Shown piece after piece: positions 7,723 to 53,205 of a DNA stretch of 64,000 bases. The first letter of the stretch is position 1. The number at the start of each line of letters is the position of its first letter. The notes under the pieces are model-generated. The model was not told the DNA's origin, did no database searches, and was given only the letters and a program-made list of their open reading frames with translations. Source of the stretch: Acheta domesticus (lineage: Eukaryota; Arthropoda; Insecta; Orthoptera; Gryllidae); NCBI GenBank assembly GCA_031308135.1, contig JAHLJT010000631.1:227046903-227110902 (forward strand), in the 5' to 3' direction. A program made the translations under genes and the position numbers.

Positions 7723-7770
7723 CTACTCTCAACGACTTGTTTATCCCCCGAGCGGTGGCGTGTGCCGCAG

Positions 7771-10790: not shown

Positions 10791-11301
10791 CTTTGTTTTG
10801 AAAATGTTCATTGCCGTTTGTAGAGATATTTCTCTTATTTGTCTGACGTCTCTCATTGCAGCTATGGCAGCGATTGCTTTTTGTTTTACATGTTTGTTGA
10901 AGGTGGTTCCTGATGTTTGCATGGCAATTCCTAAATATTTGTAGTCATTAACTACTTCGAGTTTTTCGGTTCCAATCTTAAGCTTTTCTTTCTCCGCTAC
11001 CTTTCCCCCTCTTCTGAAGATCATTAGCGCGCTTTTGCTGATGTTGATTTTCAGTCCGTTTTCCTCGGCCCATGTTGCGAGTTTGTTTAAGCTATTTTGT
11101 AATCTTCGTGGTTTTTGGAGGATAAGGCCATGTCGTCGGCATAGAGGTATGCTTTGGACCTTTCTGTGGTTACCGCTTGTATTATATCAGCTGTTGCAAA
11201 GTTGTGCAATAGGGGGCTCAGGGGATCTCCTTGTAGTACCCCGTTAGTTTGAGTGGCTGCTTTAGATCTTTCAATGTTGTTGTCAATGGTGATGGTGTTG
11301 T

Positions 11302-13248
11302 CAGAGTTGGGCAGTATCGAAAATACTTGTATTTAAAATACGTATTTTCGATACTTTTGTAATTTGTATTGAAATATGTATTTTGTATTTGTATCGAAAA
11401 TACTTTCTGATAGTCTTTTGTATTTTCAAAATACAAAAATACTTTTTCTTAATCTCACAAACATTGATTGGGCCAGTAAATGGAGAGGATCCCGCCACGT
11501 GGACGAGTGCGACCGGACGTCCGGTTCCTCCGATTACGTTTTTTTCCCTCCGTCGGTTCAACTGGAGATAAACGGAAAAGCGCTGTAATCATTGTGTAAG
11601 ATATATTTCTTACACCATAGCTGTAATCGTGAGCTCAGATTTAATTTCTCGGAGAGCAGCCTCCGTGTGCCAGAACGAGTGCTGCCCAAGTGTGTGCCTT
11701 GTGGCCCTGTGGTTGTGTGCAGTGATTAAAAACTTGTGCTTGCGGTGTTTTTAAGAGATGATATTTCGTTATGGTATATTTAGGTAAAAATCTATTTTTT
11801 TCCTGAGTACCTTGTACTAAATGAAGCTTTATATATACATTTCAAGTTTATTTGAACTAAAACCCGTCAATTTTATAGTGCTTAAATGAGCCTATTTCAA
11901 CATTAATGCCTATTTGTGCCTATTTTACGTTTAAAAAACTAAAATGAAACTAATTTGCCTAATTTCTTTTGTTTATGGCTCCTTTTACCTTTTTTCTTCT
12001 GTGTCTCCACAACGGACAAGGATGATATTAATTTTAAGTTACTTTTAACAACCTAAATTGCATTCGTCCTCTTGTACCTTTTTATCCGCTTGTCTCATTT
12101 TGTCGCCTGTAAGAGAGCGAGAAATGAATATACCGGACAAGGATCTAGCGATAAGTCTCCGCGCCACTACTTCCTGACTTCATGGAGAAGCTGCCTCCGT
12201 TTCTAAGATAAAGCGATTGAATTTCCCCGAAAGCAAAGTGATCTTGACCGATAAGAAACATTCATTTGCTCTTGAGAACTTGGAGAAGGTATTAGTAATT
12301 TATTGTGAGGCAAAATACGGTAGGAATAATTCTAACTATAAACAAACTTGTTCATAAATAGTATTATCGCAAAATGTTCAAAGCTAATTCTACGTAATAT
12401 TGATTTATGTTCTTATCTTTGAGAAATAAAATAAATGGTCAAAAAGTGAGTTTTCTTGTCAGTTTCGAGTTTTATTAGTGCCTATTCTACCATTTAAAAA
12501 GCCTAACAGATGCTGGAAGAACCTATTTTAGGCACCTAAAACGCATATTTTAAAACCTAAAAATCCTCGGTATTCATCAGATATTCATATCATTTGTGAT
12601 GTATGTTCATACTTTAAGTCTGAAAGTATCTTGGTTAATTGTCTATTACCTGCAATATTTGTCCCCAACTATCACCTCCCAAGAACTCATGGTGAGATCT
12701 TTATACTCCGAGTATTCCTTCGGCTCTTAGCATGGACAAGATGCCTTTCAGACTTAAAATATGAATATACATAACATCACAAATGATAGGGGCTGTCCAT
12801 AAATTACGTAACGCAAATTTCCAGTATTTTCAATACCCCCTCCCCCTTGTAACGCACTTCCCTATCTCTTTGTAAAGCAGTGTAACGGTGCCTCAGACCT
12901 CCTCCCTCCCCCTTTGGCGTTACTTAATTTATGGATGACCCCATACGGATACCTGAAATAGGTTGAAAATTTCATTTGAAACATTTTTGTATAAAAAATG
13001 TTATATATTTTTAGTAATACAATTTTGTATGGGATGTGATCTTTTATATTGAACGTGAATGATTGTTTAAAAGAGAAAAAAATAGGATAGAAGATATTAC
13101 GTGTATGTGTAAAACACCCTTGGTTGTATTTTGTATTTTCAAAAGTATTTTAAAATACTATTTTGTATTTGGTATCTAAAATACTTTCGGCGAAGTATTT
13201 TGTATTTTGTATCTGAAATACATTTTTCAAGTATTTTGCCCAACCCTG
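11302..13248. mobile_element. hAT-type element (1.95 kb) inserted in the LINE, non-autonomous
   Basis: The termini are CAGAGTTGGGCAGTATCG (left) and the reverse of CAGGGTTGGGCAAAATAC (right), a CAGxGTTGGGCA hAT-style inverted repeat. The flanks GGTGTTGT (11294-11301) and GGTGTAGT (13249-13256) are an 8-bp target duplication with one mismatch. LINE coding sequence continues on both sides. Subterminal regions are full of GTATTTT/AAAATAC repeats. The interior has the TGCCTATTT word family and a 154-bp MITE but no transposase. Confidence 0.8.
12789..12942. mobile_element. 154-bp MITE with 27-bp inverted ends
   Basis: The left end GGGGCTGTCCATAAATTACG and right end (reverse complement GGGGTCATCCATAAATTAAG) match over about 27 bp. 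ATA flanks both sides (12786-12788 and 12943-12945), a likely 3-bp target duplication. The interior is pyrimidine-rich. It is the innermost of the nested insertions. Confidence 0.75.
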
Positions 13249-13429
13249 GGTGTAGTGTTTTAGCATCTTTATTGTGGTGGTTGCGAGATAGTTTTCTGGT
13301 CTAAGCAATTGTTCCAGTTTTCCTTTTATATTTTCGCGAACTATGGAGTCAATGCCTTGCTGTAATCGATGAATGCTGTATAGAGTTTTTCCTTTGGGTA
13401 TCCTGAGGGCATCTCGTATGTCTGCTTGA

Positions 13430-13445
13430 AGAACAACGCGAAATA
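13430..13445 (+). repeat. Target-site duplication, right copy
   Basis: Identical to 8121-8136. It marks the 5' (truncated) side of the minus-strand LINE. Confidence 0.8.
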
Positions 13446-13881
13446 CCGTGAGATATTCCATCGTTAAGACAAGCCCCCACGCGCCTAGAAAAGAAAACTC
13501 AAATATTATTATTCGCAATTAAATAAAATTTACAGGATATACTCTTTATTGGTAATATTGGTAATAAAGCGACATTTTCATATAAAATTCTTTGACAAAA
13601 AATATTTGTACAAATGTTTGTGCAAAAATGCTTAAAAACCAATTACACAAAACAAAAGTGAAATTTTAAAAAATTACAACATCAAACGATGTCAAAATAA
13701 TGTGTCTTTAAGTCAGCAAAATATCAATATTTTATTTAATTAATTATTGTATAATTAACAAATTTTTACAAAAGTTACATCAATCACAATTTAACTTTGG
13801 CTGAATATATGGTACGGTCTTCCCTTTACTAATTTAAAGATGAAAAACCATTTGAAAACGCGCGTTTTGGTCCCCGCACAG

Positions 13882-14076
13882 TGGACAGTGGCGTCTGTGT
13901 TCATCGTGGCCATCCCCACGGTGGAGTGCGCGTCGGCCACGCTTTTGGCGCACGTGGCGCTGCGGTTTGCGCGCCGTGGCCGACGAGCTGCGCCACCTGT
14001 TCCGCGACGGCAGCGATCCCGGCGGCGCCCGCGCCCGCCTGCGCGCCTGCGTGCGCCACCACCAGGCCGCGCTGAG
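13882..14076 (+). CDS. Odorant receptor exon (helix 3 to intracellular loop) with a frameshift
   Basis: Following the acceptor CCCCGCACAG the phase-0 frame reads WTVASVFIVAIPTVECASAT then LLAHVALRF, a typical OR helix. From about 13967 the OR-like reading moves one base, to RAVADELRHLFRDG and ARLRACVRHHQAALR, which matches the conserved 'LxxRLxxL...CVxHHxxIL' loop. The exon closes at the donor GTGCGT (14077) in phase 2. The shift lies between roughly 13955 and 13975, so the exon is either a pseudogene or carries a one-base sequence error in a GC-rich tract. The join to 7771-7918 is phase-compatible. The next OR exon (helix 4, usually with an SPxLLxQL-type motif) was not found before 36.9 kb. 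Confidence 0.7.
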
Positions 14077-14299
14077 GTGCGTAGCGCATGCGTGGCCAAG
14101 CCCCCGCACCTGCGGCGCTGGTTGGCGCTATACTCTAAAAGTGGATTACCTGGAACGTAGCAGCGTTGTTTCGCGTGGGTGAAGATTTAAATCAGATTGG
14201 GAAATAGGTGTGAAGGGCAATGGGCGTCAAAAATTTTTGGCGATCCACTTGGTTTAAAATGTAAGAAAATTGCCATGTGACCTCACTGGTAACATTGCG

Positions 14300-15310
14300 T
14301 CGAAAATATAAGTATTTTTACTTTCCCGTATACGACGTGTATACGGAGTAATATACGTAGTATACGGAAAGTTACGTAATGCTGCGTGAAAAAACGGTGG
14401 ATTTTTAGCAGAAAATATTCATTGCCGAGCCCTGACAACGAAAAAGTGGATAAAACTAGTTGCTAAATTAAGGAAAAGTAATCCCCCAACACGTGGGTTA
14501 GCCAGAATCCCTCTTTTGTGGGTCCTTGGTACCGAAAAACAAATTAAAAACAAAACGTCCGTCTGTCCGTCCGTGAACACTATGCCTAAACCATACGTGG
14601 GAATTTTTTCAAATTGAAGAAACCCCTGTCGATCTGGCTCGACTCGAAGCTTTGAGATTTTGAAAAAGATTCTATAAAATTTCGAGGTACTTTATATGAA
14701 GCCCCCCGGATATTTTCAAAATTTTCTCAAAAACGGCTCTAAAGTTTTTCTTTAAATTTCTTGTAAGAATAGAGTAAAATACACTTATAAAGGTGGTATA
14801 AGTCCGAATTTCACGGTTATCTCTTTCAATTTGAGGTATTTATTCATTTTTTTAAAATTAAACAAATGTATTTTTTGAAAGATCTCTTAGGCTACACTTT
14901 TAATATGAACATTTCCTGCAATTTATAAACAATATTGATTTTTGAGAGTTCATGTTCTTCAAAAGAGTTCGAATGATGTTTTTCGAAAACTCAAACATTT
15001 TCAGTGAAAAAGACCTTCAAATTTCGCATTTTTATTAGCGCTTAAACGCCATTTCCTTAAATACGACTCACAATTTTTCAAGGAAAATAGCCATTTGGAA
15101 CGAGATTTTACTGTTCTTTAATATTCTTAAAACAATATTTCTGTTCTACTTTTAGGAAATCGGAAAAGTAAGAAATTGTCAAAAAATGTACTTTGGGCGG
15201 TTATAGATGGCAGCTGGCCAGAGAATTTGGCAATACCAAATAGCTAGCCGGGACCAAAGAAAATAGAAAAACTAATACGGGAACGTCTGTTCCATTCTGT
15301 AGCACCACTA
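14300..15310. mobile_element. Foldback family, copy B
   Basis: It opens with a near-palindrome (14322-14372, ACTTTCCCGTATAC...GGAAAGT). Then come GTTACGTAATGCTGCG, AACACGTGGGTTAGCCAG, GTGGGTCCTTGGTACCG and GTCCGTCTGTCCGTCC, in the same order as copy A. It ends at GTAGCACCACTA near 15308, preceded by AAATAGCTAGCCGGGACC as in copy D. Confidence 0.6.
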
Positions 15311-16440
15311 TTTTTCTCTTAAGTAATTTCTTCCAAGTAATTAGATTAATTTTTTAATAAACGCTAGTATATGGATGAATAAAGAGTAGAGGCGATTTTT
15401 CAGGGCAGGGAAGAGAGAAAAGTCTTCATCCCATATTTTCTTCTTCCGAATGTCATTTCAAACAAATATTTTATTTTTCACTTTCTGGCCTTACAAATGT
15501 ATTTAAAAAAGGTAGTACTACTAACCTATGTGTATAGTAAACAGGATGTGTTGTAATTGTGTCGGAAACCGGCAACCGGCGACCAAAAAACGTACATTGT
15601 CCTAATAACGAAATGTGGATTAATAAATTTCTAATACGTAGTAAATTTTTTCCTCTAACATGTTGTGTAGTAAGAACCATGTTTTGTCGGTCCTTGATAC
15701 CAAAAAATCGATTAACGGAAAAACTCCGTCCGTCTGTCGATTTCAACGAACTCCAGGTCCTGCTAGTATGAAACAAATATTTAGATATTTTCGTTACTTG
15801 ACGTGGTCTCATTTACATTTTCAAAATTGTTCGGGGCTGCTGCACTTGTTTTGAAATTAAGTGGACTGTATTATCGGATTGATTCATCAAGCACCCTTTG
15901 ATACCTCATGCAGGGTGGATGGCACATGATATGTTTTCGGTTCCACAGAAACAAGTTATTGCAACAGAAACAAGTTATTGTAACAGATTTAATCTTGGTC
16001 AATCTCACTTCACTGGCGTGGATAGAAAATGGCGTGGATAGAAATGTCTAATTACACTTTGTACCCAATTGATAGTTTCGTTGCAGTTAATGGCGTAATG
16101 TTCGTTATGATACGTTAAATTTACGTAAAACTATTTCCTAATACAATACTAAGGCGGCTGTAATCATAGCATTACCGTATTCAACTCAGCCTTGCGATGC
16201 ACAAACTAGCATTTAAGTTACACAATTAATTATTGCTCTTTTACGAGACTTGAAACATTTACGAGCAAAGATTTTACATGGAGATCAATGGACACGAATC
16301 CGCTTAAGGTCCACTCCAGAACTGATCTGATGATCTCGGCGACACTAGCGTCGCGAGATCTACTGCGCACGGCGCTTTAGAGTGGGGTAAGAAATTGGCC
16401 TATCACAGATTGTTATTTGAATTGGTTCACAAATGTTCTG
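15311..16440. other. No gene recognised; AT-rich with foldback-family fragments
   Basis: A fragment at 15640-15745 resembles the TTGGTACCG/GTCCGTC region of the foldback family. A duplicated phrase (ACAGAAACAAGTTATTG) lies at about 15945-15982 and a local GTGGATAGAAA duplication at 16019-16044. Nothing coding was supported. Confidence 0.4.
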
Positions 16441-23282: not shown

Positions 23283-23759
23283 GTAAGCACAATCCTTGAA
23301 GTTAGGGTCGCCAACTAATACACGAAATTCACTTGAATGAATCACTTGAATGAATCTAATAAATGAAATTTACATTAAATGCGATATCATTGCTCACAGT
23401 ATTTTTCCACCAGATGGTTAGTTTTCCAGAAATTCAAGAATGACATAAGCAAAACACGTAATTTTGCGTCCAAAATGTACTTAAAGATAATAGTCACGTT
23501 TCATCAGTTATTACACATTACAACTACTGCTATGCCTTCAGTGCTAATGTCAGTGCTGTAGAAGCAATAGTTTAAGAGCTAGAGGGCGTCAAAGTTGTCC
23601 ACTTTTGGCATTCGTTAAAAACCCGCCATTTTTGTAAATATACCTCTCAAGGCACTTTCCTCGTCCGAATGCCGCACAATAATGGGATTTTCTGAGAAAT
23701 TTGCATTTGGAAGAAAAATGAGCCCTGAAACGAATTTGAAACTAGTGATGCTACAGAAT

Positions 23760-24491
23760 GGCACAGACTCTCCCGTATTAGTTTTTCTTGGGTCTTCGCT
23801 AGCTATTCGGAATTTCCTATTGGTAGAACGAAAATATTACATTAAGAATATTAAAGAACACAAAAACCTAGCCGTAAATGGCAATTTTCTTTTAAAAAGT
23901 ATGTGCCGTTTAAGAGAAAATGACGTTTTAGCACTACTAAAAATGCTAAATTTGAAGCTCATTTCCACAGAAAATTTTTGAGTTTTCAAAAAACTTTATG
24001 TGAAGTTATTTGAAGCACTTACACTCACAAATATCTTTACAAATTGCGGATTATGTGCATATTAAAGATGTGAGAGATCTTTCAAAAATTTACATTTATA
24101 TAATTCTTGAAAAAACAAAAAAATTAAAATAAACTTTACGTCATATTAAAGAATGTTAATTATCACTATCCGTTACAAAAGTTTCAAGAAAAAATTTGCA
24201 GCCATATATGAGAAAATGGCGTTTGAGCATTTCTGAAAATGCCGAAATTTGAGCTACTTCACAGAAAACGGTTGTGTTTTCGAGAAACCTTCACTTGACT
24301 TTATTTTAAAGCATACATACTCAGAGGATTTTTTGTTCTTAATTAGCAACTGGTTTTATCCACTTTTTCGTTTTCACGGCCCGGCTATTATTTTTTTCCC
24401 GCCGAAATTGGCCATTTTTTCACGCAGCATTACATAACTTTCCCTATACTACGTATATCACTCCGTGTATGCGTACGTATACGGGAAAGTA
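23760..24491 (-). mobile_element. Foldback family, copy C (inverted)
   Basis: CTCCCGTATTAGTTTTTC and CTAGCTATTCGG at 23770-23815 are the reverse of the right end of copy B. The copy ends with the palindrome 24437-24491 (ACTTTCCC...TATACGGGAAAGT). It sits immediately before the spacer of the 12-bp array. Confidence 0.55.
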
Positions 24492-24493
24492 AA

Positions 24494-25010
24494 AAATGAC
24501 CAAAAATGGCCGGTTCAGTTTTTTGCGAATTACTAACTAACAATCTGTTTGAAAAACGGATTTCACAAGTAAACTCGCATTGCGATTCCGGGCTGGGATA
24601 TTGATATTCAGCGAATTCAGGATTCCGTCCAAAATCGACAATTTTCGTCGATCCATGGATCCACGAAATTTCGTGTTTTTGGCAATGCACGAAAGAATGG
24701 GCCAAAAGACACTTTTCTGCAAAATTATGCAATATATTTTTATTCAGGAAGTAAAATACAAAATCAAACTTTAATACAGAGTTGCAAAATTCCATTATTT
24801 ACCGCATTTGGACGAAAACGATTTTGAAAAAAATGACCAAAAATGGCCGATTCAGTTTTTTGCGAATTACTGGGAAACTAACAATCGGTTTAAAAAACGG
24901 ATTTCACCAGTGAACTCGCCATGCGATTCCGGGCTGGAATATTGATTTTCAGCGGATTCGAGATTCCGTCCAAATCGACAATTTTCGTCGATACATAGAT
25001 CGACGTTTTT
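24494..25010 (+). repeat. Direct duplication flanking the 12-bp array
   Basis: 24494-24655 and 24832-25008 are diverged direct copies: each runs TGACCAAAAATGGCCG, TCAGTTTTTTGCGAATTACT, AACGGATTTCAC, GCGATTCCGGGCTGG and CGACAATTTTCGTCGAT. The part from 24710 to 24905 matches the reverse complement of the spacer at 32860-33060. Confidence 0.7.
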
Positions 25011-28000
25011 TTTCCATGCCCCGTCTTTTTGCCCGTTTTTTCTGACCGCCTCATTAACCGACTTTTTTGACCGTGTTTCTTACAGTCATTTCTAAATGTC
25101 TTTTTTACCATTTTGACAGTCTTACTGGCCGGTTTTTTTGGTCGTCCTATTTGACCGTTATTTTGCCCGTCTATCCGACTGTCTTTCTGTCATTCTGACC
25201 GCTCTTTTCACCGTCTATTTGACCGTCTTTCTGGTTGTCTTATTGACAGTCATTTTTACCGTCTTTTTGATCGTATTTTTCACCAATTTTGTACTGTCTT
25301 TTGGCCCTCATTCAGACAGTCTTTCTGATCGTCTTTTGACCCTCTTTCTGACAGTCTTTTCTGACCGTCTTTTGCCTGTCTTTTTAGCCGTCTTTCTGAC
25401 AGTCTTTTTTGCCCGTCATTTTGGCCGTCTTTTTGACCATCTTACTGGCTGTCTTTTTGACCGCCTTATTGACCGCGCTTTTGACAGTCTTTCTGACCGT
25501 CTCTTTGACCGTCTTCATAACGTCTTCCTGGCTGTCATTCTGGCCGTTTTACGTTAACCGTCTTTCTGTCCATCTTTTTCATTGTGTTTCTGACCGGTCT
25601 TTCTGGTTGTCTTTTTGACCGCTTTTTGACCGTCTTTTGACTGTCCCTTTAACTGTCTTTTTCGCCGCCTTTTTTAGCGACTTTCTGACCGTCTTTTGAC
25701 CGTCATTTGACCGTCTTTTTGACCGCCATTTTGACTGTCTTTTTGACCGTCCTTTTCACCAATTTTCGACTTTTTTCACCGTCTTTTTTGACCATCTATT
25801 TCTGTCTTTTTGACCGTCCTTTTACCTGACCGCCTATTTGACAGCCTTTTTGACCGTATTTTTTGACCATAATATTCAACTTCTTTCTGACCATATTTTT
25901 GACCGCCATTTTGACTGTCTTTTTGACCTTCCTTTTCACCAATTTTCGACTGTCTTTTGGCCCTCTTTTTTTACTTTCATTTTTACCGTCTTTCTGACCA
26001 TCTTTTTGACAGTTTTTTTTGACCGTTTTTCTTTCCGTCTTCTTAAAAATTTTTGACATTTCTTCTTGAATTTTTTTTTCCACCGTCGTATTGATGGTCT
26101 TACTGACAGTCTTATTTACTCTCTCTTTCAGACCGCTCATTTCGCCGTCTGTTTGACCGTCTTCCTGATTGTGTTAGTGACCGTCATTTATACCGTCTTT
26201 TTGACCGTCTTTTCACCAATTTTTTACTGTCTTTCACCCTCTTTCTGACAGTCATTCTGACCGTCGTTTTGCCTGTCATGTTAGCCGTTTTCTTGACCGT
26301 CAGTCTTTCGACTTGTCTTTCCTGGAAGTTTTTCTGGCAGTGTTTTACCATTTTTCAACATCTTAGGACTGCTATTTCATCATCTTTTTAACTGTCGTTT
26401 TGACAGTCTTTGCGACCGTGATTCTTACCGTCATTTTTACCGTGTTATAGTCATCTCTACCGTCATATTTACCGTGTTTTTTTACACGGTATCATCTTAC
26501 CGTCTTTCTGACCGTTTTGACCGCTTTTTTACGGTGCTTTTGACCGTCTATTTCAACGACTTTCTGAACGTTTTTCTGACCGTCTTTCTGGCCGTCTTTT
26601 TGACCGCCATTTGATGGTCTTTTTGAGCGTCTTTTTTGACGTCTCGTGACTGTCTTTTTGACCGTCTTTTCGATCTTCGTTTTTACGTCTTTCTGGTCGT
26701 CTATTTGACTGTGTTTTGACCGTCGTTTTGACAGCCTTTTTGAGCGTCTCGTTGATCGTTTTTCTCACGGCCTCTTTGACCGTTTTTTTAGAACACATTT
26801 CTGACCAATTTTTGACCGTCCTTTTCACCAATTTTGGAATGTCTTTTGGCCTTCTTTTTGACCGTTGTTTCTACCAACTTTCTGACCGTCTTTTTGACTG
26901 TCATTATTACCGTCTTTTTTACTTTTTGGACTGTCTTGTGACCGTCGTTTCGAGCGTCATCATTACGTCTTTCTATCTCTTGACTGTGCTTTGGCCGTCG
27001 TTTTTGACCGTCTTTCTGATCGTCTTTCTGATCTTTTGACGTTGTTTTTGGCCCGTCTTTTTTATCATTATTCTGACCGCGTTTCTTACCGTCTTTCTGA
27101 CACTTTTTGACAGCTTTTATTACTGTTTTTGACCGTATATAAGACCGTCATTGGGAACGTATTTCTGAGCGTTTTTTCTGACCTTCTTTTCTGGCCGTCT
27201 TTTTTGACCGCTATATGAGTCTTTTTTACCTCCTTTAAACCGTCTCTTGACCGTTTTGAACGCCTTGTGACCGTCTTTTCCAGCGTCGTTTTTACGTCTT
27301 TCTGACTGTCTATTTGACTGTGTTTTTACCGTCGTTTTTGACCGTCTATCTGACCGTCTTTTTGACCTTGTTTTTGACCGTCTTTCTGACCGTCTTTTTG
27401 ACTGTCTTTAGACCGACTATTGACTGTCCTTATTACCGACGTACTGTCATTTTCACCCTGTACCTGTCCGTCTTTTTGACCACCTTTCAGACTGTTTTTT
27501 ACCGTCTTTTTGTCCGTTTTCTGACCGTGTTCCTTACCGTCTTTCTGACCGTCATTATGATCATCTTTTTGACAGTCCTACGTGACAGACTCGCTATCTT
27601 TTGGTAGTCATTTTGACCGTACTTTTGCGCGTGTTTAAGTTTAAGTTTAAAGTTTAAGATTGACGTTTTTAAAGCGTCATTCTGACCGCTCAGTTCGCCG
27701 TCATTTTCACCTTTATTTTGTCGTCTTTTGATCGTGTTTTTGATTATCATTTTGAACGCTGTTTGGCCGTCTTTTTGACCATTCTTTCACCTATTTTTGG
27801 CTGTTTTAACATTGTTTGACTGTCTTTTTGACCGCCTCAATGACTGCGTATTTTGAAAGTCTTTCTGACCGTCTTTTTCACCGTCATTTTGATCGACGTT
27901 TGACCGGCTTTTGCCCATCATTTTGACCGTCTTTCTGACCGCCCTTTTTACCGTTTTCTGACCGTGTTTCTTACCGTCTATTTGACCGTTTTTGACAGCA

Positions 28001-31000
28001 TTTCTGCCTTGTTTATGACCTTTCTGAACGTTTTTGATCGCTATTTGAAAGTTTTTTGGCTGGTCCTATTGACAATCTCGTGTCCATCTTATTAACCGTT
28101 TAATGACCGTCTTTGTGACCGTCTTGTCAACTGGCCTTTTTACGTCCTTCTGACTCTCTATTTGACTGTTATTTTGCCGTCTTTCTTACTGTCATTTTGA
28201 CCCTGTCACTGTCCGTCTTTTTGACCGCTTTCTGAGTGTGTTTCTACCGTCTTTTTGGCCGTTTTCTGACAGTGTTCCTCACCGTCTTTCTGATCGTCAT
28301 TATGATCGTCTTTTCGGTAGTCTACGTGACCGTCTTGCTGTCTTTTTGGTGGTCATTGTGACTATTTTTGCGCGGGTTTAAGACAATCTTTTAAACCGTC
28401 ATTCTGGCCGCCTCAGTTCACTGCCATTTTGACCTTGATTTGTCGTGTTTTTATGATTATTTTACCGTGATGATAGTCCTTTTGACCGCTGTTTGGCTCT
28501 TCGTGAGCGTTTTTTTCCATAATTTTTTACTGTCTTTTGACCATTGTTTGACTGTTTTTTTGACCGCCCTGAATGACTGCGTTTTTTGACAGTCTTTCTC
28601 ACAGTCTTTTTGATCGTCTAAAGACCGACATTTGACCGTCTTTTGCCCATTATTTTAACGTATTTTACAGTCTTTTTGACTGTCGTTCTGACTGTCTTTC
28701 TGACCGTCTTTTTCACCGGCTTTTTGCCTGTCTTTTTGTCCGTCTGACCGCCTCATTGACCGCCATTTTTACCGTTTTCTGACTGTGTTTATTACCGTCA
28801 TTCTGACAGTTTTTTGACCGATTTTTACCGTGTTTTTGACCGTCTATTTTCTTTCCCTCTTCTGACCTACTTTCTGGCCGTTTTTTTGATCGCTATTTGA
28901 CAGTTTTTTAATTTTTTGACTGTCTCGTGACCTTTTTGATTGTCTTGTTACGTCTTTTGTGATCCCCCATTCCGACCGTCGTTTTTACGTCTTTCTGACT
29001 ATTTGACTGTGTTTTGACCGTCGTTTTCACAGTCTTTATGACCGTCTCATTGATCGTCTTTCTGACCGCCACTCTGACCGTCTGTTTGAGCGCCTTTCTG
29101 AGCATCTTTATGACCGTCAGTTTGACTGTCTTTTTGACAGTCCGTTTCACCAATTTTCGTTTGTCTTTAGGCCCTCTTTTTGACAGTCGTTTTAATCGTC
29201 TTTTAGACAGTCTTTAGACCGACTGTTTGACTGTCATTAATACCGTCTTTCTGACCGTCATTTTTAACCGCTGTTTGGACATCTTTTTGACCGTTTTCAC
29301 TAATTTTTGCCGGTTTTCTGACCATAGACTGTCTTTCTGTCCGACTCAATGATTGCGTTTTTGACAGTCTTTCTGACCGTCATTTTGACCGTCTTTGCCA
29401 ATTATTTTGACCTATTTTACAGTCCGTCTTTTTGACTGTCGTTCTGACTGTCATCATGGCCGTTTTTTAACCGGCTTTTTGCCCGGCTTTTTGCCCGTCT
29501 TCCTGACCGCCTCATTGACCGACCTTTTTTTACCGTTTTCTGACCGTGTTTTTTAGCGTCCTTCTGACCGTCATTAGATCGTCTTTTTGACAGTTTACAT
29601 GACCGTCTTGCTATCTTTCTAGTGGTCATTGTGACCGTATTTTTGCCCGTGTTTAAGGCAATCATTTTAAACCGTCATTCTGACTGATCTCTTCATCGTT
29701 TTTTGACCGTCTTTTTTACTTTAATTTGGTCGTCTTTTGATCGTGTTTTGACCATTATTTTACAGTTTATAATCATTTTGACAACTGTTTGGCCGTTTTT
29801 TTGACCATTCTTTCACCTATTTTTGGCTGTTTTAACATTGTTTGACATTGTTTTAACATTATTTTACCGTTTTTGTTGGTTATTTTGACCCGCTGTTTAG
29901 CCGTCTTTTTGACCGTTTTCACTATTTTTTTGACTGTCTTTTGACCATTGTTTGACTGTCTTTTCTTACTGCCTTATTGATATAATGTTTGACAGTCTTT
30001 CTGACCGTCGTTTTGACCGTCCTTTGCCCATCATTTTGACCGCTATTTTACAGTCCGTCTTTTTGACTGTCGTTCTGACTGTCATCCTGACCGTTTTTAA
30101 CCGGCTTTTTGCCCGTCTTTTTGACCTCTTCCTGGACCGCCTCATTGACCGACTTTTTACCTTTTTCTGACCGTGTTTCTTACCGTCTTCCTGACCTTTT
30201 TGACCGCCTTTTTACCGTGTTGTTGACCGTCTATTGACCGTCTTTCTGAACGTCTTTCTGAACATTTTTTCTGACCGTCTTTCTGGCCGGTTTTTGATCG
30301 CTATTTGACTGTTGAGTCTTTTTGACTGTCCTATTGACAGTCTCTGTGACCGTGTTTTTGACCGTCTCGGTGACCCGTCTTGTCGACCGACGTTTTTACG
30401 ACTTTCTGACTATTTTGACTGTGTATTTACCGTCGTTTAGACAGTCTTTTAGACCGTTTCATTCATCGTCTTTCTGACCGCCTTATTGACCCGTCTTTCT
30501 TGAGCGCCTTTCTGAGAGTCTTTTTGACCGTTCGTTTAACCAATTTTTACTGTCTTTCTGACCGTCATTTTGACTGCTTTCTGGACTGTTTCGTACTGTC
30601 TTTTTGACCGTCATTAAGACCGTCTTTTTGACAGTCTACGTGACCGTCTTACTGTCTTTCTGGTGGTCATTTTGACCGTATTTTTGCGCGTGTTTAACAC
30701 AGTCTTAAACCGTCATTCTCACGCTCTGTTCACCGTCTTTTTTACCTTAATTTGTCGTCTTTTGATCGCGTTCTTGACCATTATTTTTACCAGTTTATAA
30801 TCATTTTTAGACAGCTGTTTGGCCGTTTTTTGACCATTTCTTTCACCTATTTTTGGCTGTTTTAACATTGTTTGACAGTCTTTCTGACCGTCTTTTTCAC
30901 CGTCATTTTGATCGACGTTTGACCGCCAATTTGTGACTGTCTTTGACCATTGTTTGACTGTCTTTTTGACCGCCTCAAAGACTGCATTTTTACAGTCTGT

Positions 31001-32850
31001 CGTTTTGACCGTCATTTTGACCGACCTTTTGACCATCTTGTCCCTATCATTTTTTAACGTATTTTTCATTTTTTTGACAGTCGTTCTTACTGTCTTTTTC
31101 ACCGGCTTTTTGCTCGCCTTTTTACCGTCTTTCTGACCCGACTCATTGATCGCCATTTTTACCGTTTTCTGGACCGTGTTTCTTACCGTCTTTCTCAATG
31201 TTTTTCCTGACCATCTTTCTGGCCGTTTTATCGCTATTTGGCAGTCTTTTAAACCGTCCTTTTGACAGTCTCGTGACCGTCTTTTTGACCGTCTTGTGAC
31301 CGCCTTTGTGACCGTCTTGTCGAGTGTCGTTTTTACGTCCTTCTGACTGTTTTGACTGTCTTTTTGTCCATCTCGTTGATCATCTTTCTGACCGCCTCTT
31401 TGACCGTCTTTTTGAGCGCCTTTCTGAGCGTTTATTTTAACCCGTCAGTTTGACTGTTTTTGACTGTCCGCTTCACGCATGTTCGTTTGTCTTTTGGCAC
31501 TTTTTGACCGTCGTTTTTAACCGTATTTCTAACCGTCTTTTTGAAAGTCATTAGACCGACTGTTTGATTGTCATTATTTCCGTCTTTCTTACCGTCGTTT
31601 TGACCCTGTCACTGTCCGTCTTTTTGACCGTTTTCTGGACCATGTTTTTTACCGTCATTAAGACCGTTCTTTTTGACAGTCTACATGACCGTCTGTCTTT
31701 TTGGTGGTCATTTGGACCGTGTTTTTTGCGCCTGTTTAAGACAATCTTTTTAACAAGTCATTCTGACCGCTCTGTGAGTCTTATTGACCTTAATTTTGTC
31801 GTCTTTTGATCGTGTTTTTGACCATTATTTTAACGTTCTTGATAGTCAATTTGTTCGCTGTTTGGTCGTCTTTTTTTACCGTTTTTCACCAATTTGTGAT
31901 TGTCTTTTGACCATTGTTTGACTGTCTTTCTGAGCCGCCTCATTGACTGCTTTTTTACCGTTTTTTGACCGTGTTTCTTTCCGTCTTTCTGGCCGTTTTT
32001 GATCGCTATTTGACAGTTTTTTGACCGACTTTCTGACAGTCTCGTAACCGTCTTTTTGACCGACTTGTGACCGTCTTCTTGACAGTCTTTAGACCGACTT
32101 TTGACTGTCATTATTACCGTCACGTAGACCGTCATTTTGACCCTGTCCTTGTCCGTCTTTTTGACCGCTTTCTGACCGTGTTTTTTACCTTCTTTTTCAC
32201 CGTTTTCTGACCGTGTTTCTGACGGTGTTTCTGACCTTCATTAAGACCGTCTTTTTACCGTTGTTTGACTGTCTTTCTGACCGCCTCTTTGACTGCCTTT
32301 TTGACAGTCTTTTTGGACCGTCTTTTGACCGTCTTTTTGACCGTCTTTTGCCCTACATTTTGACCGTATTTTACTTTTGACCGTCTTTTTGACTGTCGTT
32401 CTGTCTTTCTGACCGTCTTTCTCACCGGCTTATTGCCCGTCTTTTTGACTGTCATCTCCGTCATTTTGACAGTCTACCTCACCGTTTTTCTGGCCGTCTT
32501 TTTGAGCGCTATTTATCAGTCTTTGTGACCGTCATTTGGACCGTCTCGTGACCGTCTATTTTACCGTCTTGTGACCGTTTTTTACGCCTTTCTGACCGTC
32601 AATTTGACTGTTTGGACCGTCAACGGTTTTTTCACCGTCTCGTTGATCGTCTTTCTGACCGCCTCTTTGACCGTCTTTTTGAGTGCCTTTCTGACTGTCG
32701 TTTTGACCGTTCATTTTCACCAACTTTCGAATGTCTTTTGGCTTTTTTGACCGTCGTTTTTACCTTTTTCTGGCAGTCTTTTGCAAGTCTTTAAGAGTCT
32801 TTATGAGTGGCATTTTAACGACTTTTGGGCGGTCTTTCTTGCCTTCATTT
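25010..32850 (+). repeat. 12-bp satellite array, GACCGTC orientation
   Basis: About 7.8 kb of degenerate repeats of GACCGTCTTTTT / GACCGTCTTTCT (mostly 12 bp, range about 11-13). Longer landmarks recur, such as a GACCGCCTCATTGACCG block followed by ACCGTTTTCTGACCGTGTTTCTTACC (near 28745, 29505, 30135, 31135) and a GGTGGTCATTxTGACC...TTTTGCGCG...TTTAA block (near 27600, 28335, 29620, 30650, 31700). This implies higher-order units of roughly 0.7-1.3 kb. Because 12 bp is four codons, the array gives long but meaningless open frames (FLTV repeats on plus, KKTV repeats on minus). No gene was found inside. Confidence 0.9.
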
Positions 32851-33070
32851 CACTGGATTAGTTTACTAGTGAAATCCGTTTATCAAAAAGATTGTCAGTT
32901 TTCGAGAAAAGCTGAACCGGACAATTTTGATCTTTTTTCACATTCGCTTCAGAACTCACTTGTCGTCCAAATGCGGTAAATAATGGAATATTCAACTCAA
33001 TTGTACTTCCTGAACAGAATAAGTCTGCATTATTTTGCAGAAAAGTTCATTTCGTCGAACCGCTACAGTA
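32850..33070. repeat. Spacer at the orientation switch of the satellite
   Basis: About 220 bp of non-satellite sequence separates the two arms. Its reverse complement contains ACTTTTCTGCAAAATAATGC, TTCAGGAAGTA, CCATTATTTACCGCATTTGG and AACGGATTTCACTAGT, matching the left flank of the array at 24710-24905. Confidence 0.75.
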
Positions 33071-36000
33071 ATTTTGGACGTCTTTTTGACGGTCAGGTGG
33101 ACTGTCAAAAATTAGTCAGAAAGATGTTGAGAAAGATGGTAAGAAACACGGCCACAAAGCGATCAAAAAGGCTGTCAATGACGCGGTCAGACAGTCAAAC
33201 GACAATCAAAAGACAGTAAAAAATTAGTGAAAACGGTCAAAAAGACGGCCAAACAGCAGTCAAAATGACTATCAAAACACGGTAAAAATATGTTCAAAAA
33301 CACGATCAAAAGAGGGCAAAAGGAAGGTCAAAAAGACGGTCAAAAGACGCTAAAAAGAACAGTCAGAATGACGGTTTTAAAGATTGTCTTAAACACGCGC
33401 AAAAAGACGGTCAAAATGACGACAAAAACACAGAAAAGACGGTCACGTAGACTGTCAAAAAGACGGTCTGAATAACTGTCAGGAAGACGGTAAGAAACAC
33501 GGTCAGAAAACGGTCAAAAATATTGTAATAAACACGGTCAGAAAGCGGTCAAAAAGACTTTCAGTGTCAGGGTCAAAAAGACGGTCAGAAAGACGGTAAT
33601 AATAACAGTCAAAAAGTCGGACAATCGACTGTCAAAACGACGGTCAGAAAGACGGTAAAATCACGGTCAAAAAGAAGGAAAAAGACATTCGAAAATTGGT
33701 AATCAGGACGGTCAAAAAGGCAGTCAAAATGACGGTCAAAAAGACGTTCAGAAAGACGATACAGAAGGCTGTCAAAGAGGCGGTCAGAAAGACGATCAAC
33801 GCTCAAAAATACTGTCAAAACGACAGTCAAAATACAGTCAAATAGACGGTCAAAAACAACGGTCAATAAGACTGTCAAATAGCGGTCAAAATGACGGTCA
33901 GAAAAACGTTCAGAAAGACGGTCAAAAAAAGATCAAAAACACTAGTAAAAGCAGTCAAAAAACGGTCAGAAAGACAGTAACAAAACGCGGTCAGAAAGAT
34001 GATCAGAAATACAGTCAAAGAGACGGTCCAAAAGCGGTCAAAAACGGCCAGAAAGACGGTAATAACGGTCAGAAAGACAGACGAAAAGACGGTAAAAACG
34101 GTGGTTATAAAAACGTTAAAAACGGTAAAAACGGCCAGAAAGACCGCCAGAAAGACGTTAAAAAGACAGTCGAAAGACGCAAAAGGGCGGTCAGAAAGAC
34201 GGTCACGAAAACAGTTAAAATGACGGGCAAAGAGACAGTCAGAAAGACGGTAAAAACGACGGTCAAAAAAGGGCCAAAAGACATTCGAAAATTTGTGAAA
34301 AAGACGGTAAAAAATATGGTCAAAGGGCGGCCAGAAAGACGATTAACGAGACGGTGAAAAAGACTGTCAAAATAACGGTCAAAACACAGTCAAATAGACG
34401 GTCAGAAAGACGTAAAAACGACGGTCGAAAGAATGCCAAAAAGACAGTCACGAGATGATCAAAAGGACGGTCAAAAAGGCTGTCAAATAGCGGTCAAAAA
34501 GACAGCCAGAAAGACGGTCAGAAAAAACGTTCAGTAAAACGGTAAAATAGACAAACGGTAAAATAGGCAAAAACAAGGTAAAAAGCGGTCAAAAAACGGT
34601 CAGAAACTGTAAAATAATGGTAAAAAACACGATCAAAAGACAACAAAGGAAGGTCAAAAAGACGGTCAGAAAGACAGTCAAACAATGATCTAAAGGAGTC
34701 AAAATTTGGTGAAAAAACTGTCAAAAAGACGGCCAAACTGGTTGTCAAAATGACTGCCAAGAACGGTAAAATATTGGTCAAAAACACCAACAAAAGGTCA
34801 ATGAATCGAATGAAGGTCAAAATGACGGTCAAAAAGACGGTGAACAGGGTGGTCAGAAGATGGTTAAAAATATTGTCTTAATCTCGCGAAAAAATAGGTC
34901 AAAATGACCACCAAAAAGACAGCAAGGCGGTCATGTAAACACTCAAAAAGACGGTCTTAATGACGGACAGAAAGACGGTAAGAAACACGGTCAGAAGACG
35001 GTCAAAAAGACTGTAAGAAACACAGTGAGAAAGCGGTCTTTTGACCATTGTTTGACTGTGTCAAAATGACGGTCAAAAAGACGGTAAAAAACGACGGTCA
35101 AAAGAGGGCCACAAGACAAACGAAAATTGGTGAAACGGACGGTAAAGTCACAGTCAAACTGACGGTCAAAAAGTCGTTCAGAAAGGCGCTCAAAAAGACG
35201 GTCAGTAAGACGATAACGAGACGGTCAAAAGGACTGTCAAAACATAGTCAAATAGTCAGAAGGACGTAAAAACGACGGCCGAACAAGACGGTCACAAAGG
35301 CGGTCAAAAAGACTGTCAAATAGTAATAAAACAACCAGAAAGATGGTCAGAAAATCGTTTAGAAAAACGGTCAAATAGACGGTTAAAAACACGAAAATAT
35401 GGTCAGAATGGCGGTACGAAACACGTTCAGAAAACGGTAAAATGGCAGTCAATAAGGCGGTCAGAAAGACGGTCAAAAAGGCTGGCAAAAAGTCGGTCAA
35501 AAAGACGATGAAAAAGACGGTCAGAAAGACTATCCAAAAAGCAGTCAGTGGGGCGGTCAGAAAGACAGTCAATGGTCAAATGAGTCAAAAATTCGAGAAA
35601 AACGAGAAAAAAGACGGCCAAACAGAGGTCAAAATTACTATCAAGAACGTTAAAATAATGGTACAAAACATGATCAAAAGCCCACAAAATAAAAGTCAAA
35701 AAGACGACCAAAAAAACGGTGAACAGAACGGTCAGAATGATGGCTTAAAAGATTGTCTAAAACACACGCAAATATACTAAAACACACAAAAGATGACCAC
35801 AAAAAGACAACGAGACGGTCACGTTGACTGTCAAAAAGACGGTCTTAATGACGTTCAGAAAGACGGTATGAAACACGGTCAGAAAGCGGTCAAAGAGACG
35901 GACAGTGACAGGATGAAAATGACGGTCAAAAAGACAGTCAAAATGACAGTCAAACAGTCGGTCTCAAGACTGTCAAAAAGACGGTAAAAACGAACGACGG

Positions 36001-36480
36001 TCAAAAAGAGAGCAAAAAGACAAACGAAAATTGGTGAAACGGGCGGTCAAAAAGATAGGAAAACTGACGGTCAAAAAGACGCTCAGAAAGGCGCTCAAAA
36101 AGAAAGTTAAAGAGGCGGTCAGAAAAACGATCAACGGTGGAAACACAGTTAAATAGTCAGAAAGTCGTAAAAACGATGGTCGACAAGACGGTCACAAGAT
36201 GCTCAAAAAGCCGAGCACGAGACTGTCAAAAGGATGGTAAAAAGACAGTCAAATAGCGGTTAAAAAACGTCCAAAAAGACGGTCAGAAAATGTTCAGAAA
36301 GACGGTCAAATAGACAATCAAAATCACGGAAAAAATGCGGTCAAAAAACGGTCAGATAGACAGTAAGAATCACGGCCAGGTAAAAATGGCGGTCAATGAG
36401 GCGGTCAGAAAGACGGGCAAAAAAGTCGGTGAAAAAGACGGTCAGAAAGACGGTCAGAACGACAGTCAAAAAGACTGGTA
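33070..36480 (-). repeat. 12-bp satellite array, inverted arm
   Basis: The same satellite in reverse complement (GACGGTCAAAAA / GACGGTCAGAAA), about 3.4 kb. The higher-order landmarks recur inverted (GTCTTAAACACGCGCAAAAA near 33390; similar near 34875 and 35755). The outer end at 36388-36430 (GCGGTCAATGAGGCGGTCAG, GACGGGCAAAAAAG) mirrors the outer left end at 25020-25060. With the plus arm it makes a giant, length-asymmetric foldback. Confidence 0.9.
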
Positions 36481-36682
36481 ATCACACGTGTCGGGAGGTC
36501 CACATCCAACAAAGCATCGTCAGGGAGAAAATGACTAATTTACTAGTTTAAACTTTATTTATCACTCAAAATAGATTAACAATGCAAAAGAACTTCACAG
36601 ACATACGTAACAAACAAAATCCGAGCTCGACTGCCCAACATTTTCCAAGTCCATTCAATCCCGCCAGTACTAGTTTGGCTAA

Positions 36683-36793
36683 TGGCGGTGGGCGCCGCCG
36701 CGCATGCGCAACGACCTGCGCACGGTGCTGCTGCGCGCGCAGCGCACCGCGCGCATCACCGCTCTGCGCGCCGCAGATGTTTCACTCTCCTAA
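36683..36793 (+). pseudogene. Odorant receptor exon-5-like remnant
   Basis: The frame reads RMRNDLRTVLLRAQRTARIT then ALRAADVSLS and stops at TAA 36791-36793. It matches 24 of 29 residues of the intact exon at 38472-38633 (RMRKDLCMVLLRAQRPARIT...). It lacks that exon's 5' part (EAVAAAAW...) and its donor. It lies 107 bp upstream of an exon that should precede it in a normal OR, so it is a duplicated, displaced or second-locus fragment. Confidence 0.8.
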
Positions 36794-36899
36794 TGGCGGA
36801 ATTAAAGTTCAAAGACACTTTGCCTGATGGCGTTACTTGTCTGCTAATTTTATTTTCGTATTATCAAAGACGTCAAAACGCGTTGTGCTGTCGTTGCAG

Positions 36900-38471: not shown

Positions 38472-38633
38472 GGCGAGGCGGTGGCGGCGGCGGCGTGGGC
38501 GTGCGGCTGGGAGGGCGACGGGGCGCCGCTGCGCATGCGCAAAGACCTGTGCATGGTGCTACTGCGCGCGCAGCGCCCCGCGCGCATCACCGCTCTGCGC
38601 ATCGCAGATGTTTCGCTCTACACGTTCGGGGAG
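38472..38633 (+). CDS. Odorant receptor exon (penultimate)
   Basis: After the acceptor GTGCGCAG the phase-0 frame reads GEAVAAAAWACGWEGDGAP, LRMRKDLCMVLLRAQRPAR and ITALRIADVSLYTFGE, followed by the strong donor GTAAGTG. The 'SEAVAxAAYxxxW', 'LLRAQRPxxxTA' and 'SLxTF' elements are the classic insect OR C-terminal motifs (intracellular loop 3 leading to helix 7). Exon length (162 nt) and phase-0 ends fit the family's conserved last introns. Confidence 0.92.
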
Positions 38634-38776
38634 GTAAGTGTTTCGTCAGTTCCTCAATATAAAGAAAATGCAGTGGAACCATGAAACATTTCTACATGCG
38701 ATTCTAATTAAAAGAGCCCAGATTTTGGATGTAATCGTTCATTAATAAGAATATGTCTTTATTTTCATTATAATAC

Positions 38777-45104: not shown

Positions 45105-46384
45105 GGGAGGACCCCCATCGATCTGGCTCGAGTCAAAGCTTTGAGATTTTGAAAAAGATTCTATAAACTTTGGGGAGTACTTTACATGAAGTCCCCCGAA
45201 CATTTTCAAAATTTTCTCAAAAACAACTCCAAATTTTTTCTTTAAATTTCTTGTAAGAATAAAGCAGAAGACACTTATAAAGGTGACATAGGTTGAATTT
45301 TCACGGTTAACTCTGAATTTTTGAAAATTGCAAAAGTTTGAATTTTCTTCAGCCTCTTGCTACAACTACAAAATTAGAGACAGAAAGTTTTCCTTCCAAT
45401 AAAATTTGCTCTCCATAGTGATTTCTTTCATTAAGGTTACGTGCATTTTTTGAACATTTTAGTTGTTTTCGTGCGATATGTGCATTTTAAAAAATAACAA
45501 AAACAAGATTTTCTCAAAAATGGCTCCAATTTTTACCGGTAAAGATAAAGCTAATGCAGAATTTTTATTATGAGATAAATCCTGAACTATTAGATGACTT
45601 GAATGCCATATTGCTCTAATCTTTTGTTTGTTTGATTTTATTACAAAAATGTAATTTTTTGACTTGTCTCTCACGTCGTTAATATTTACACTAGTGGCTG
45701 ATTTGTTCACATTATTATATTTATGAGTACATGTGCTTCAAATAATTTTATATGAAGTTTCTTGAAAACTCAACCATTTTCTGTGAAAACTAGCTCAAAA
45801 TTTTCAGAAATGCTCAAACGCCATTTTTTCAAATACGGCTCCAAATTTTTTTTCCATCTTTTTGAATGGATAGTGTTAAATGCACTCTTTAATACAAACA
45901 TAAAGTTCATTTTGGGGCATTTTTGTTTTTTCAAAAATTTCACAAATGTAATTTTTTTGAAAGATCTCTCACTCTATTATTAAGCACATTTCCAGCAATT
46001 TGTAAACACTATTGTATTTTTGTGTTAATGTACTTCAAATGACTCCTAATGATGTTTTTCGAAAAATTTCTGTGAAAAAGAGCTTCAACTTTTGAATTTA
46101 CAGTAGCGTTGAAACTGCCATTTTCTTAAAAACGGCTCCATATTTTTCAAAGAAAATTTCCATTCAGGACAAAGTTTACTGTCCTTTAATATTATTAAAA
46201 GAATATTTCCTTTCTACTATTAGGAAAGGGAAAAACTAAGTAAAGGTCAAAAAAATATACTTTAGGCAGTGATATATGGCAGCTGGCAAGATAATATGGC
46301 AAGTCCAAATAGCTAGCTGAGATCATAGGAAATAGAAAACTAATACAGGAACCAATACAGTGCCATTCTGTATCACCACTAGTT
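45105..46384. mobile_element. Foldback family, copy D
   Basis: It starts near CCCCATCGATCTGGCTCGAG and runs through the same ordered phrases as copies A and B (AAGCTTTGAGATTTTGAAAA, AAAGTACTTTACATGAAG-like, GATCTCTCAC, AAATAGCTAGCTGAGATC). It ends at TGTATCACCACTAGTTT (46382), the shared family terminus. Confidence 0.6.
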
Positions 46385-47350
46385 TATGATCTGTCTCAGA
46401 ACATGAGATATCCTTAAAAATGGGTCTCAAGACAAATTGTAGTCCTTGTAAATTCTCTACATTTTCCCAAAATTTCGACCTTTTATCTTATAATTTGCAC
46501 CCAACAGCTCAATATAAATAAAACAGTTATTTAATAGTGTCTGTCATTTACATCTACTACAAAATGTCACACACATTACATCTATAGAAGACACATTGAA
46601 GGGCATAGATTATTTATCATCAACTTTCAAGGCAAGATTCAGAAAGCTTATGCCTGTGGTAACTTTCAGAGTCTTTATCAATGTCAGAACCATCATTTCA
46701 GTCAAGTTTCAAGAATCCATCTTACACAATACAGGCTAAAGGGATGTGGAAATATTAATTGAAATGCCTTTCACTGAACCGTTGTTACATAAAAATATTG
46801 TTTCTTGTGCTTTTCAAACACTGAATTTAATTAACATTCCTTCTGAAGCTTGTATTCGTTTTGTAGCGATGTGTGCTTTTATACCAAAAGGAAACCGCAG
46901 TTGATTGTGATCTTAATTTGAAAACTATTGTTTCTTGAACATTTGCATAATTTTAGAGCATTTTCATACATGTGCCAAGTAGAGAAACAAGAGTTAGAGC
47001 TATTATTAAACAACCAAAGTAACGAAAGTATTCTGGTAAGGTGGATAAAGTATAAAAACTCATTATTTTTAGTTAAAATCTTTCAATATTTGTTCAGTAT
47101 TTAATTCACAATGGGGAATAATATTATTCTTACAATTTTGTTTTGTTTTCACTATTTCAGAGAAATTACAAAACTCAATATAACAAAACTTACCTTAAAA
47201 AAACAAATAAGAAACTATTAAAGTATTTAGCTGTCAGGTGCAAATTGTAAGACGAAAGGTTGAAATTTTGGAAAACTGCAGACAATTTACAGGGCTTCAA
47301 TTTGTATTGAGTCCTTTTCTCTCTCTCAGTACATGAGATTCCCCCCCCCC
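46385..47350. mobile_element. ~960-bp element with ~125-bp inverted repeats
   Basis: 46385-46510 (TCAGAACATGAGATATCC ... GACAAATTGTAGTCC ... GTGCAAATTATAAG in reverse sense) matches the reverse complement of 47220-47350 (GGTGCAAATTGTAAGACG ... TTGAAATTTTGG ... TACATGAGATTC). It directly abuts foldback copy D. No coding sequence. Confidence 0.6.
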
Positions 47351-52050: not shown

Positions 52051-52099
52051 GCTTGAGTTTCCTTAGTTACCCCTGGATACTCCACTGGTTGGAGCGTTG

Positions 52100-53205
52100 C
52101 CCCGCCTGCGAGGGGTTGACGAGTCCGTGTCTTAGGCACAAGTATCAACATCTAGGCCGCAACCTTCCTCTGTATTTCGCCCTGAAGAAGGTCAGAGATT
52201 GGCGGGCGAAACACTGGCACCTGTGCCTAAGGCTTCGCCCGAACAGCCACGCAGCTACTCGGCAGTCGGTTCGAGTGAGGCCCCACCTGCGAGGGATTGA
52301 CGAGTCCGTGTCTTAGGCACAGGTATCAACATTTAGGCCGCAACCTTCCTCTGTATTTCGCTCTGAAGAAGGTCGGAGATTGGCGGGCGAAACGTCACAC
52401 CTGTGCCTAAGACGCGGCTTCGCCCGGACAGCCAAGCAGCTACTCGGCAGTCAGTTCGAGCGTGGCCGCACTTGCGAGGGGGTTGACGAGTCCGCGTCTT
52501 AGGCACAAGTATCAACATCAAGGTCGCGACCTTCCTCTGTATTTCGCCCTAAAGAAGGTCAGAGATTGCCGGGCGAAATGTCGGCACCTGTGCCTAAGAC
52601 GCGGCTTCGCCCGAACAGCCATGCAGCTACTCGGCAGTCGGTTCGAGTGAGGCCCCACCTGCGAGGGTTTGACGAGTCCGCGTCTTAGGCACAGGTATCA
52701 ACATTTAGGCCGCGACCTTCCTCTGTATTTCGCTCTGAAGAAGATCAGAGATTGGCGGGCGAAACGCTGGCACCTGTGCCAAGACGCGGCGTCGCCCGGA
52801 CAGCTACTGAGGCAGTCGGTTCGAGTGAGGCCCCACCTGCGAGGGGTTGACGAGTCCGCGTCTTAGGCACAGGTATCAACATTTAGGCCGCAACCTTGCT
52901 CTGTATTTCGCCCTAAAGAAGGTCGGAGATTGGCGGGCGAAACGCTGGCACCTGTGCTGAAGACGCGGCATCGCCCGGATAGCTACTGAGGCAGTCGGTT
53001 CGAGCGTGGCTCCACCTGCGAGGGGTTGACGAGTCCGCGTCTTAGGCACAGGTATCAACATTTAGGCCGCAACCTTCCTCTGTATTTCGCCCTGAAGAAG
53101 GTCGGAGATTGGCGGGCGAAACGCTGGCACCTGTGCCGAAGACGCGGCGTCGCCCGGACCGCTACTGAGGCAGTCGGTTGGAGCGTGGCCGCACCTGCGA
53201 GGGGT
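52100..53205 (+). repeat. ~181-bp tandem array (about six units) abutting a coding exon
   Basis: The marker TTGACGAG occurs at 52116, 52297, 52483, 52669, 52847, 53026 and 53205 (spacings 181, 186, 186, 178, 179, 179). Each unit holds an outer inverted repeat (GTCTTAGGCACAGGT and ACCTGTGCCTAAGAC, about 75 bp apart) around an inner one (TTTCGCCC and GGGCGAAA) enclosing CTGAAGAAGGTC. It then continues GACGCGGCTTCGCCCGGACA. The last part of each unit copies the end of exon 53195-53475, including CTCGCAG/GTG on the minus strand. The middle and end resemble the solitary element at 56.1-56.5 kb. Confidence 0.85.

Follow-up and report, generated by a model that had tools for sequence, protein, structure and literature searches.

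Opposed arms of a degenerate 12-bp satellite at several loci of the Acheta domesticus genome

A tandem array built on a degenerate 12-bp unit, here called satellite S, runs first one way and then the other in a 64,000-nucleotide stretch of the Acheta domesticus genome (the window; contig C392, 227.05-227.11 Mb, of an assembly of 2.33 Gb in 6511 contigs), and this switch of direction is real. S is a low-copy dispersed satellite with at least eight large loci in the 2.33 Gb, and a major direction switch is present in six of the eight large loci found. The explanation preferred here, to which we give an even chance of being correct, is that S is a mirror-image satellite that grows locally, with copying across its two arms as the main process. 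Two other explanations, a foldback transposon and repeated in-place inversion, have to be weighed against it.

Anatomy of the array in the window

The S unit has a period of 12 and the consensus TTTTTGACCGTC, which is common to the six arms of the three loci compared. Its degeneracy is marked: across the six arms measured, 51-53% of positions carry the same base as the position 12 away, and the match rate reported by Tandem Repeats Finder is 59%. The features of the array and of its left flank are as follows, with the basis of each in brackets.

23703..23741, + strand: A0, a leftover piece of satellite A on the left side of F (32 of 39 positions identical with the spacer)
23742..24488, - strand: F, an unrelated repeat element of ~750 bp nested in A (F-family relatives; nested position)
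24489..24826, + strand: A1, one full A unit of ~337 bp (repeated at 24827, 89% identity)
24827..25005, + strand: A2, the opening half of the A unit that follows, with S starting after it (sequence comparison, segmentation)
25006..32845, + strand: T-rich arm of S (S+), 7.84 kb of the degenerate 12-bp satellite (three-state segmentation)
32846..33085, - strand: non-S spacer at the switch, 240 bp, an inverted A fragment (three-state segmentation)
33086..36477, - strand: A-rich arm (S-), 3.39 kb, S on the other strand (three-state segmentation)
35036..35059, + strand: wrong-way island of 24 bp within the A-rich arm (its 24 bp recur exactly at three sites of the T-rich arm)

A preliminary description of this DNA had given the repeat as 7.8 kb in one direction and 3.4 kb in the other, with a 220-bp spacer between, and the segmentation agrees closely with it. 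All 82 copies of GACCGTC in the window lie inside the T-rich (left) arm, and 41 of the 42 copies of GACGGTC lie inside the A-rich (right) arm, the remaining one being at 63751; neither S arm contains a single copy of the word that belongs to the other. With both arms so strongly oriented, and with the switch recurring at other loci, the switch in the window is beyond chance.

Left of S lies satellite A, a repeat of ~337 bp represented there by one and a half units. Position 24494, earlier taken as the end of the whole element, proved to be the border between F and A, that is, the edge of the F insertion; F is nested in A, since the A0 remnant continues A on its left side. Outside A0 and the spacer itself, no place in the window has more than 22/39 identity to this spacer sequence on one strand or the other, and the forward-strand match of A0 is the real one in its region. 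A-like sequence on the reverse strand in 23500-23745 was considered and rejected, with scores of 44 and 56, at or below the shuffle maxima of 58 and 56. The inverted relationship of the spacer to the left flank, as first described, was confirmed on the reverse strand at 80% over 91 bp and 69% over 224 bp; it holds the second half of one A unit followed by about the first 95 bp of the next, inverted. A is accordingly placed outside S on the left and inside S at the spacer, and the spacer appears to be A sequence caught in a rearrangement.

The F element belongs to a dispersed family with copies in the window at 2086-4059, 5085-5256, 14316-15314, 23742-24488 and 45111-46385 (limits partly by eye); one copy is palindromic over ~1.9 kb, and several end near CACTAG (by eye).

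The array likely lies inside an intron. The piece at 38523-38636 has a match in 7tm_6, a family of odorant receptors, at E 4e-5; its 23.3 bits fall slightly short of the curated cut-off of 25.8. By eye, receptor-like pieces also occur at 7.7 kb, 13.9 kb and 36.9 kb. When three more exon-like pieces were tested, one gave a meaningless weak match and two gave none. Rfam returned 0 matches for the window, and a 24-mer scan returned 0 from viral contigs and 0 from genome contigs, a set outside which the window's own genome perhaps falls. No cellular function is proposed for S. Among other repeats of the window, 36679-36799, just past the right end of S, contains a ~99-bp copy (91%) of the receptor-like exon 38521-38619, upstream of that exon and bordered on both sides by a direct repeat, CTAATGGCGG, which occurs in the window only at 36679 and 36790. 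Farther right are a 179-bp tandem array of ~6 units (52087-53216), an element with perfect 51-bp inverted ends (56140-56480) and a ~326-bp near-palindrome (61181-61506).

Satellite S elsewhere in the genome

The genome was searched with three S words. An exact 19-letter word occurs at 14 places in 6 loci (reversed control, 0); a degenerate 19-letter word at 58 places, of which 37 are forward and 21 are reverse (control, 0 and 4); and a 24-letter word with up to 3 mismatches at 641 places, made up of 375 forward and 266 reverse ones (control, 3 and 13), with loci drawn from the first 100 of the 641. The resulting census is a lower bound, the locus at C1565:104.5M being known from the 24-letter word and missing among the 58 places of the degenerate word. 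Six partly read loci account for 283 of the 375 forward and 145 of the 266 reverse places of the 24-letter word. Four places with few hits (C392:12.92M, C2935:192.23M, C2935:219.80M and C3525:83.91M) are classed as small by word hits alone. Besides the window, the large loci found are these.

C6147:213.85M (E1; L051+L034+L048): T-rich 4848-9279, A-rich 9280-14322 in E1 coordinates, no spacer
C1707:14.86M (E2): T-rich 4111-8829, A-rich 8830 to beyond 19000, no spacer
C1707:88.19M (L054): T-rich 2815-5464 with one interruption, A-rich 5465-6040, no spacer
C1565:26.62M (L055): direct switch, no spacer, 350 bp read
C1565:104.50M (L056): direct switch, no spacer, 1.8 kb read
C5460:46.63M (L052): one-way S with a reversed island at 6261-6726, 466 bp
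C1707:5.04M (L053): S one-way in the part read

The six switched loci sit on four contigs, and at E2 the reverse-strand words extend to 14878723, 16.9 kb from the switch. Copies elsewhere that run one way only had been named beforehand as the outcome that would count against a foldback structure; given the switches at six of the eight large loci, that outcome did not occur.

All six major switches have the same polarity, T-rich and then A-rich. This arrangement is identical when read on either strand, so the polarity is a true class; a two-sided sign test on 6/6 gives 0.03, with the loci taken as independent and with both "major" and the class set after the data were seen. By eye, the switch-point sequences differ among the window, E1, E2, L054, L055 and L056. 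Several switches fall at the GACNGTC core, and switching at this core was considered as a rule; the core fills 7 of the 12 bp, so that its coincidence with switches is uninformative. Small switches of the opposite kind were seen at L052, twice in the cluster at C1565:26.6M, and at one edge of the 24-bp island of the window. In the C1565:26.6M cluster, reverse words at 26617758-26617817 are followed by forward words at 26618110-26622285, by reverse words from 26622549, by one forward word at 26623152, and then by reverse words to 26630972, which includes at least two changes of the kind opposite to the major switches.

Satellite A adjoins the T-rich arm, in the same direction, in the window, E1 and E2 (at E2 as a 125-bp relative of A). 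At C1565:104.5M an A match at 104497519-104497743 stands ~2 kb before the next listed T-rich word, and the left end of that locus (L057) has no A. A or its 125-bp relative is thus found beside S at four of the eight large loci, with A preceding the T-rich arm; it was not found in L052, L053 or L054, nor at the right-hand S ends in the window, E1, L052 and L054. In the window and E1, the two loci that have A and of which both ends were read, A is on one outer side only. An exact phase of A at both S borders was tried as the mark of an insertion point and rejected, with 0-35 bp of slack at the borders (by eye) and with A joined to S at phase ~99 in E1.

A also occurs apart from S. A genome search with 24489-25030 gave at least 78 matches (8 of 786 first-look candidates scored), and one with the spacer at least 49 (40 of 919 candidates scored). 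Tandem arrays of A were found at no fewer than seven further loci (C5098, C2935 at two places, C6147:50.4M, C1565:97.4M, C3352 and C392:222.3M), and no S was found in the stretches of these seven that were read. Two A arrays reverse direction themselves (L036:5109-8074 and L038:4755-7771), one as A->|<-A and one as <-A|A->. The ends of A arrays (L036, L038, L041, L044, L046, L047 and the window at 25005) tend to fall at A phase ~157-181, inside an internal inverted repeat of the unit (phase ~141-194), E1 with its phase of ~99 being the exception. In E1 a copy of F stands to the right of S, and in L053 a sequence resembling F directly adjoins S (by eye); at L052 S has as its neighbour another short tandem repeat, similar to CCACTTCGGACTTTAT (by eye).

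Growth of the arrays

Long segment pairs were collected at three loci by BLAST (+1/-3, score at least 36), and their density was expressed as pairs per million base products. Across the arms of one locus there were 97 pairs in 97.1 million base products (1.00), and within arms 105 in 121.8 million (0.86); between the three loci there were 14 in 414.8 million (0.034), about thirty times sparser than across arms. Long duplicated segments are therefore nearly all private to their locus among these three, which indicates that growth was mostly local and that its products are common to both arms. The densities are uneven at E1 (left 1.42, across 0.67, right 0.24). A second count in the window gave 97 pairs within the left arm, 83 across and 19 within the right, which are equal densities, and tiles of the right arm scored slightly higher against left-arm blocks of the same size (73.5) than against their own arm (71.0). 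The youngest window pairs (score at least 50) comprise 7 within the left arm, 2 across and 0 within the right, a mild shortage across the arms.

Taken alone, the window fits two readings, inversion after growth or copying across the switch. At E2, where the right arm was read for 10.2 kb, 27 of the 41 cross-arm pairs place their right member within the ~3.2 kb nearest the switch and 14 place it farther out; the strongest pairs (left 6100-8246, right 8902-11847) flank the switch at 8830. E2 favours copying across the switch, because the strongest block lies on both sides of the switch and the right members cluster near it; one terminal inversion through this block would have carried its second part to the far end, unlike the flanking position seen. 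The 24-bp island of the window points the same way, matching the opposite arm at 24/24 in three sites and its own arm's orientation at 20/24 at best. Pairing of the arms in mirror register at the switch was also considered; the centres of the pairs scatter by hundreds of bases, and no inference is drawn.

From these observations we infer that the cross-arm pairs were made by copying across the switch rather than by later inversion, with strand pairing as the agent. An S array would then grow locally as two opposed arms, T-rich and then A-rich, pointing at each other, and new segments would be copied within each arm and from one arm to the other. Pairing between opposite strands of the array in replication or repair would probably give rise to this copying, through template switching or conversion; occasional in-place inversions would add small reversals. 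A stronger form of this proposal, which we put forward tentatively and with considerable doubt, is a self-growing palindromic satellite, in which one arm grows longer by copying from the other arm's opposite strand, in a preferred polarity, and mirror-image arrays arise anew wherever the 12-bp unit has been seeded, often beside A. If true, it would represent a distinct directional mode of satellite growth, outside centromeres and without a transposase. The small number of loci, each with segments private to it, makes the mode of growth open to test by comparison between individuals.

Repeated in-place inversion of one-way arrays could give opposed arms with no cross-arm copying, the arms being alike since inversion followed growth. 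The equal similarity of the arms in the window is as expected on this account, and the window arms by themselves could be explained by it. The 466-bp island of L052 has a best match to its surroundings of 29, weaker than those of 12 random pieces of the same size (33-95), and looks like an old inversion and not a recent copy; together with the reversals at C1565:26.6M it indicates that in-place inversion may occur too. As the source of the major switches, however, it is unlikely: both polarities would be predicted, yet none of the six runs A-rich to T-rich (the sign test being the one above, on post hoc classes), and the strongest duplicated block of E2 stands on both sides of its switch.

The preliminary description had proposed a giant foldback of the FB/Galileo type. 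Drosophila FB elements have long, internally repetitive inverted arms of unequal length, and target-site duplications of 7-9 bp are found in foldback elements other than Tetris. In this explanation the S arms would be the terminal inverted repeats of an FB-, Galileo- or Tetris-like mobile element, the copies of which later grew at each site. A single polarity at six of six major switches is what copies of one palindromic ancestor would show; the 12-bp consensus shared between loci and the recurrent order of A and T-rich S also speak for it, and foldback repeats can turn into satellites, as the part of the Tetris report used here describes (PMC4079207). Against this, A is missing from the far outer end of the window and of E1, and in the window it lies outside S on the left yet inside S at the spacer. 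The two outer ends of the array had been described as mirroring each other, and no such mirror was detectable: right of 36478, the best reverse-strand score against the spacer's version of the first half of A is 24, which is not significant (15 of 1000 shuffles reach it, as do 47 of 1002 other pieces of the window), and the score against A1 and A2 is 16, reached by most shuffles and window pieces. By eye, the left ends of the window, E1, L052, L053 and L054 are mutually unalike, as are the right ends compared (window, E1, L052, L054); the best BLAST E value between the right flanks of the window and E1 is 0.08. Pfam gave no transposase for nine reading frames of the window. In a test for target duplications on 7 end pairs at 4 loci, with fuzzy ends, one pair (E1) shared a 7-bp word, which would speak for a transposon, and the other 6 pairs had no common word of 6 bp or more. 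The word, TTAATGT, is found at each of the two outer ends of the E1 block formed by A and S (E1:4012-4018 and ~14315-14325) and may be a target duplication or chance. Shared termini and mirrored flanks were not found where the ends were read, and membership among foldback transposons is thus not supported; we regard it as improbable. What stands of the original proposal is the pair of opposed tandem-repeat arms, at six of the eight large loci, and what falls is the assignment to FB, Galileo or Tetris.

A single inversion specific to the window locus, the first model drawn from the window alone, would suit the order of the spacer, which fits an inverted A-S border, but it was dropped once E1 and E2 showed the same switch, and with the same kind of switch at five other loci it is refuted as the sole explanation of the family and is very improbable. 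An artefact of assembly or reads (hairpin reads, collapsed repeats) has hardly any likelihood either, for although satellites are prone to misassembly and the judgement is made from the assembly, six loci on four contigs agree, and the window arms are only ~64-68% alike over long stretches and so are not one read folded back.

Comparison with known systems

Galileo, in the part of its description drawn on here, has arms of ~0.3-1.2 kb and a P-superfamily transposase (PMC3573991). It resembles S in its long, internally repetitive inverted arms of unequal length, whereas S arms reach 7.8 kb in the window and, by word hits, 16.9 kb at E2, and the nine window frames searched contain no transposase. 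In Tetris, a foldback element of Drosophila virilis, the account consulted describes a flanking domain in both inverted repeats, units of ~220 bp and target-site duplications of 8-10 bp (PMC4079207). Opposed tandem-repeat arrays, and internal repeats that expand to satellite arrays, are common ground with S; S differs in having no flanking domain at both ends and, as a duplication, one doubtful 7-bp word.

The closest match in kind among the sources drawn on is found in Tribolium, where the satellites TmSat1 and TmSat2 show "macro-dyad symmetry", with arrays made mostly of two opposed kilobase subarrays (PMC13081366). In the sections of that report used here, the arrays derive from a ~110-bp progenitor, make up 38% of the genome, occupy megabase, likely (peri)centromeric regions and have conserved inversion points (T. 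madens); its authors, writing in 2026, describe macro-dyad symmetries as documented exclusively in Tribolium and suggest a possible centromere role (PMC13081366). As in Tribolium, opposed kilobase subarrays of S recur in the genome and a transposon is not needed; as there, too, two satellites keep company, in Tribolium intermingled, with the minor one as a cassette in the major, and here with S beside A. In contrast, S has a unit of 12 bp and about eight large loci in a genome of 2.33 Gb, receptor-like exons are close by in the window, and the S switch points are unalike between loci by eye where the Tribolium inversion points are conserved. The S array would be a case of such symmetry outside Tribolium, whose genomes are far smaller than 2.33 Gb, and as a low-copy, gene-side example it suggests that array symmetry can come from the growth mode of the satellite and not from centromere function.
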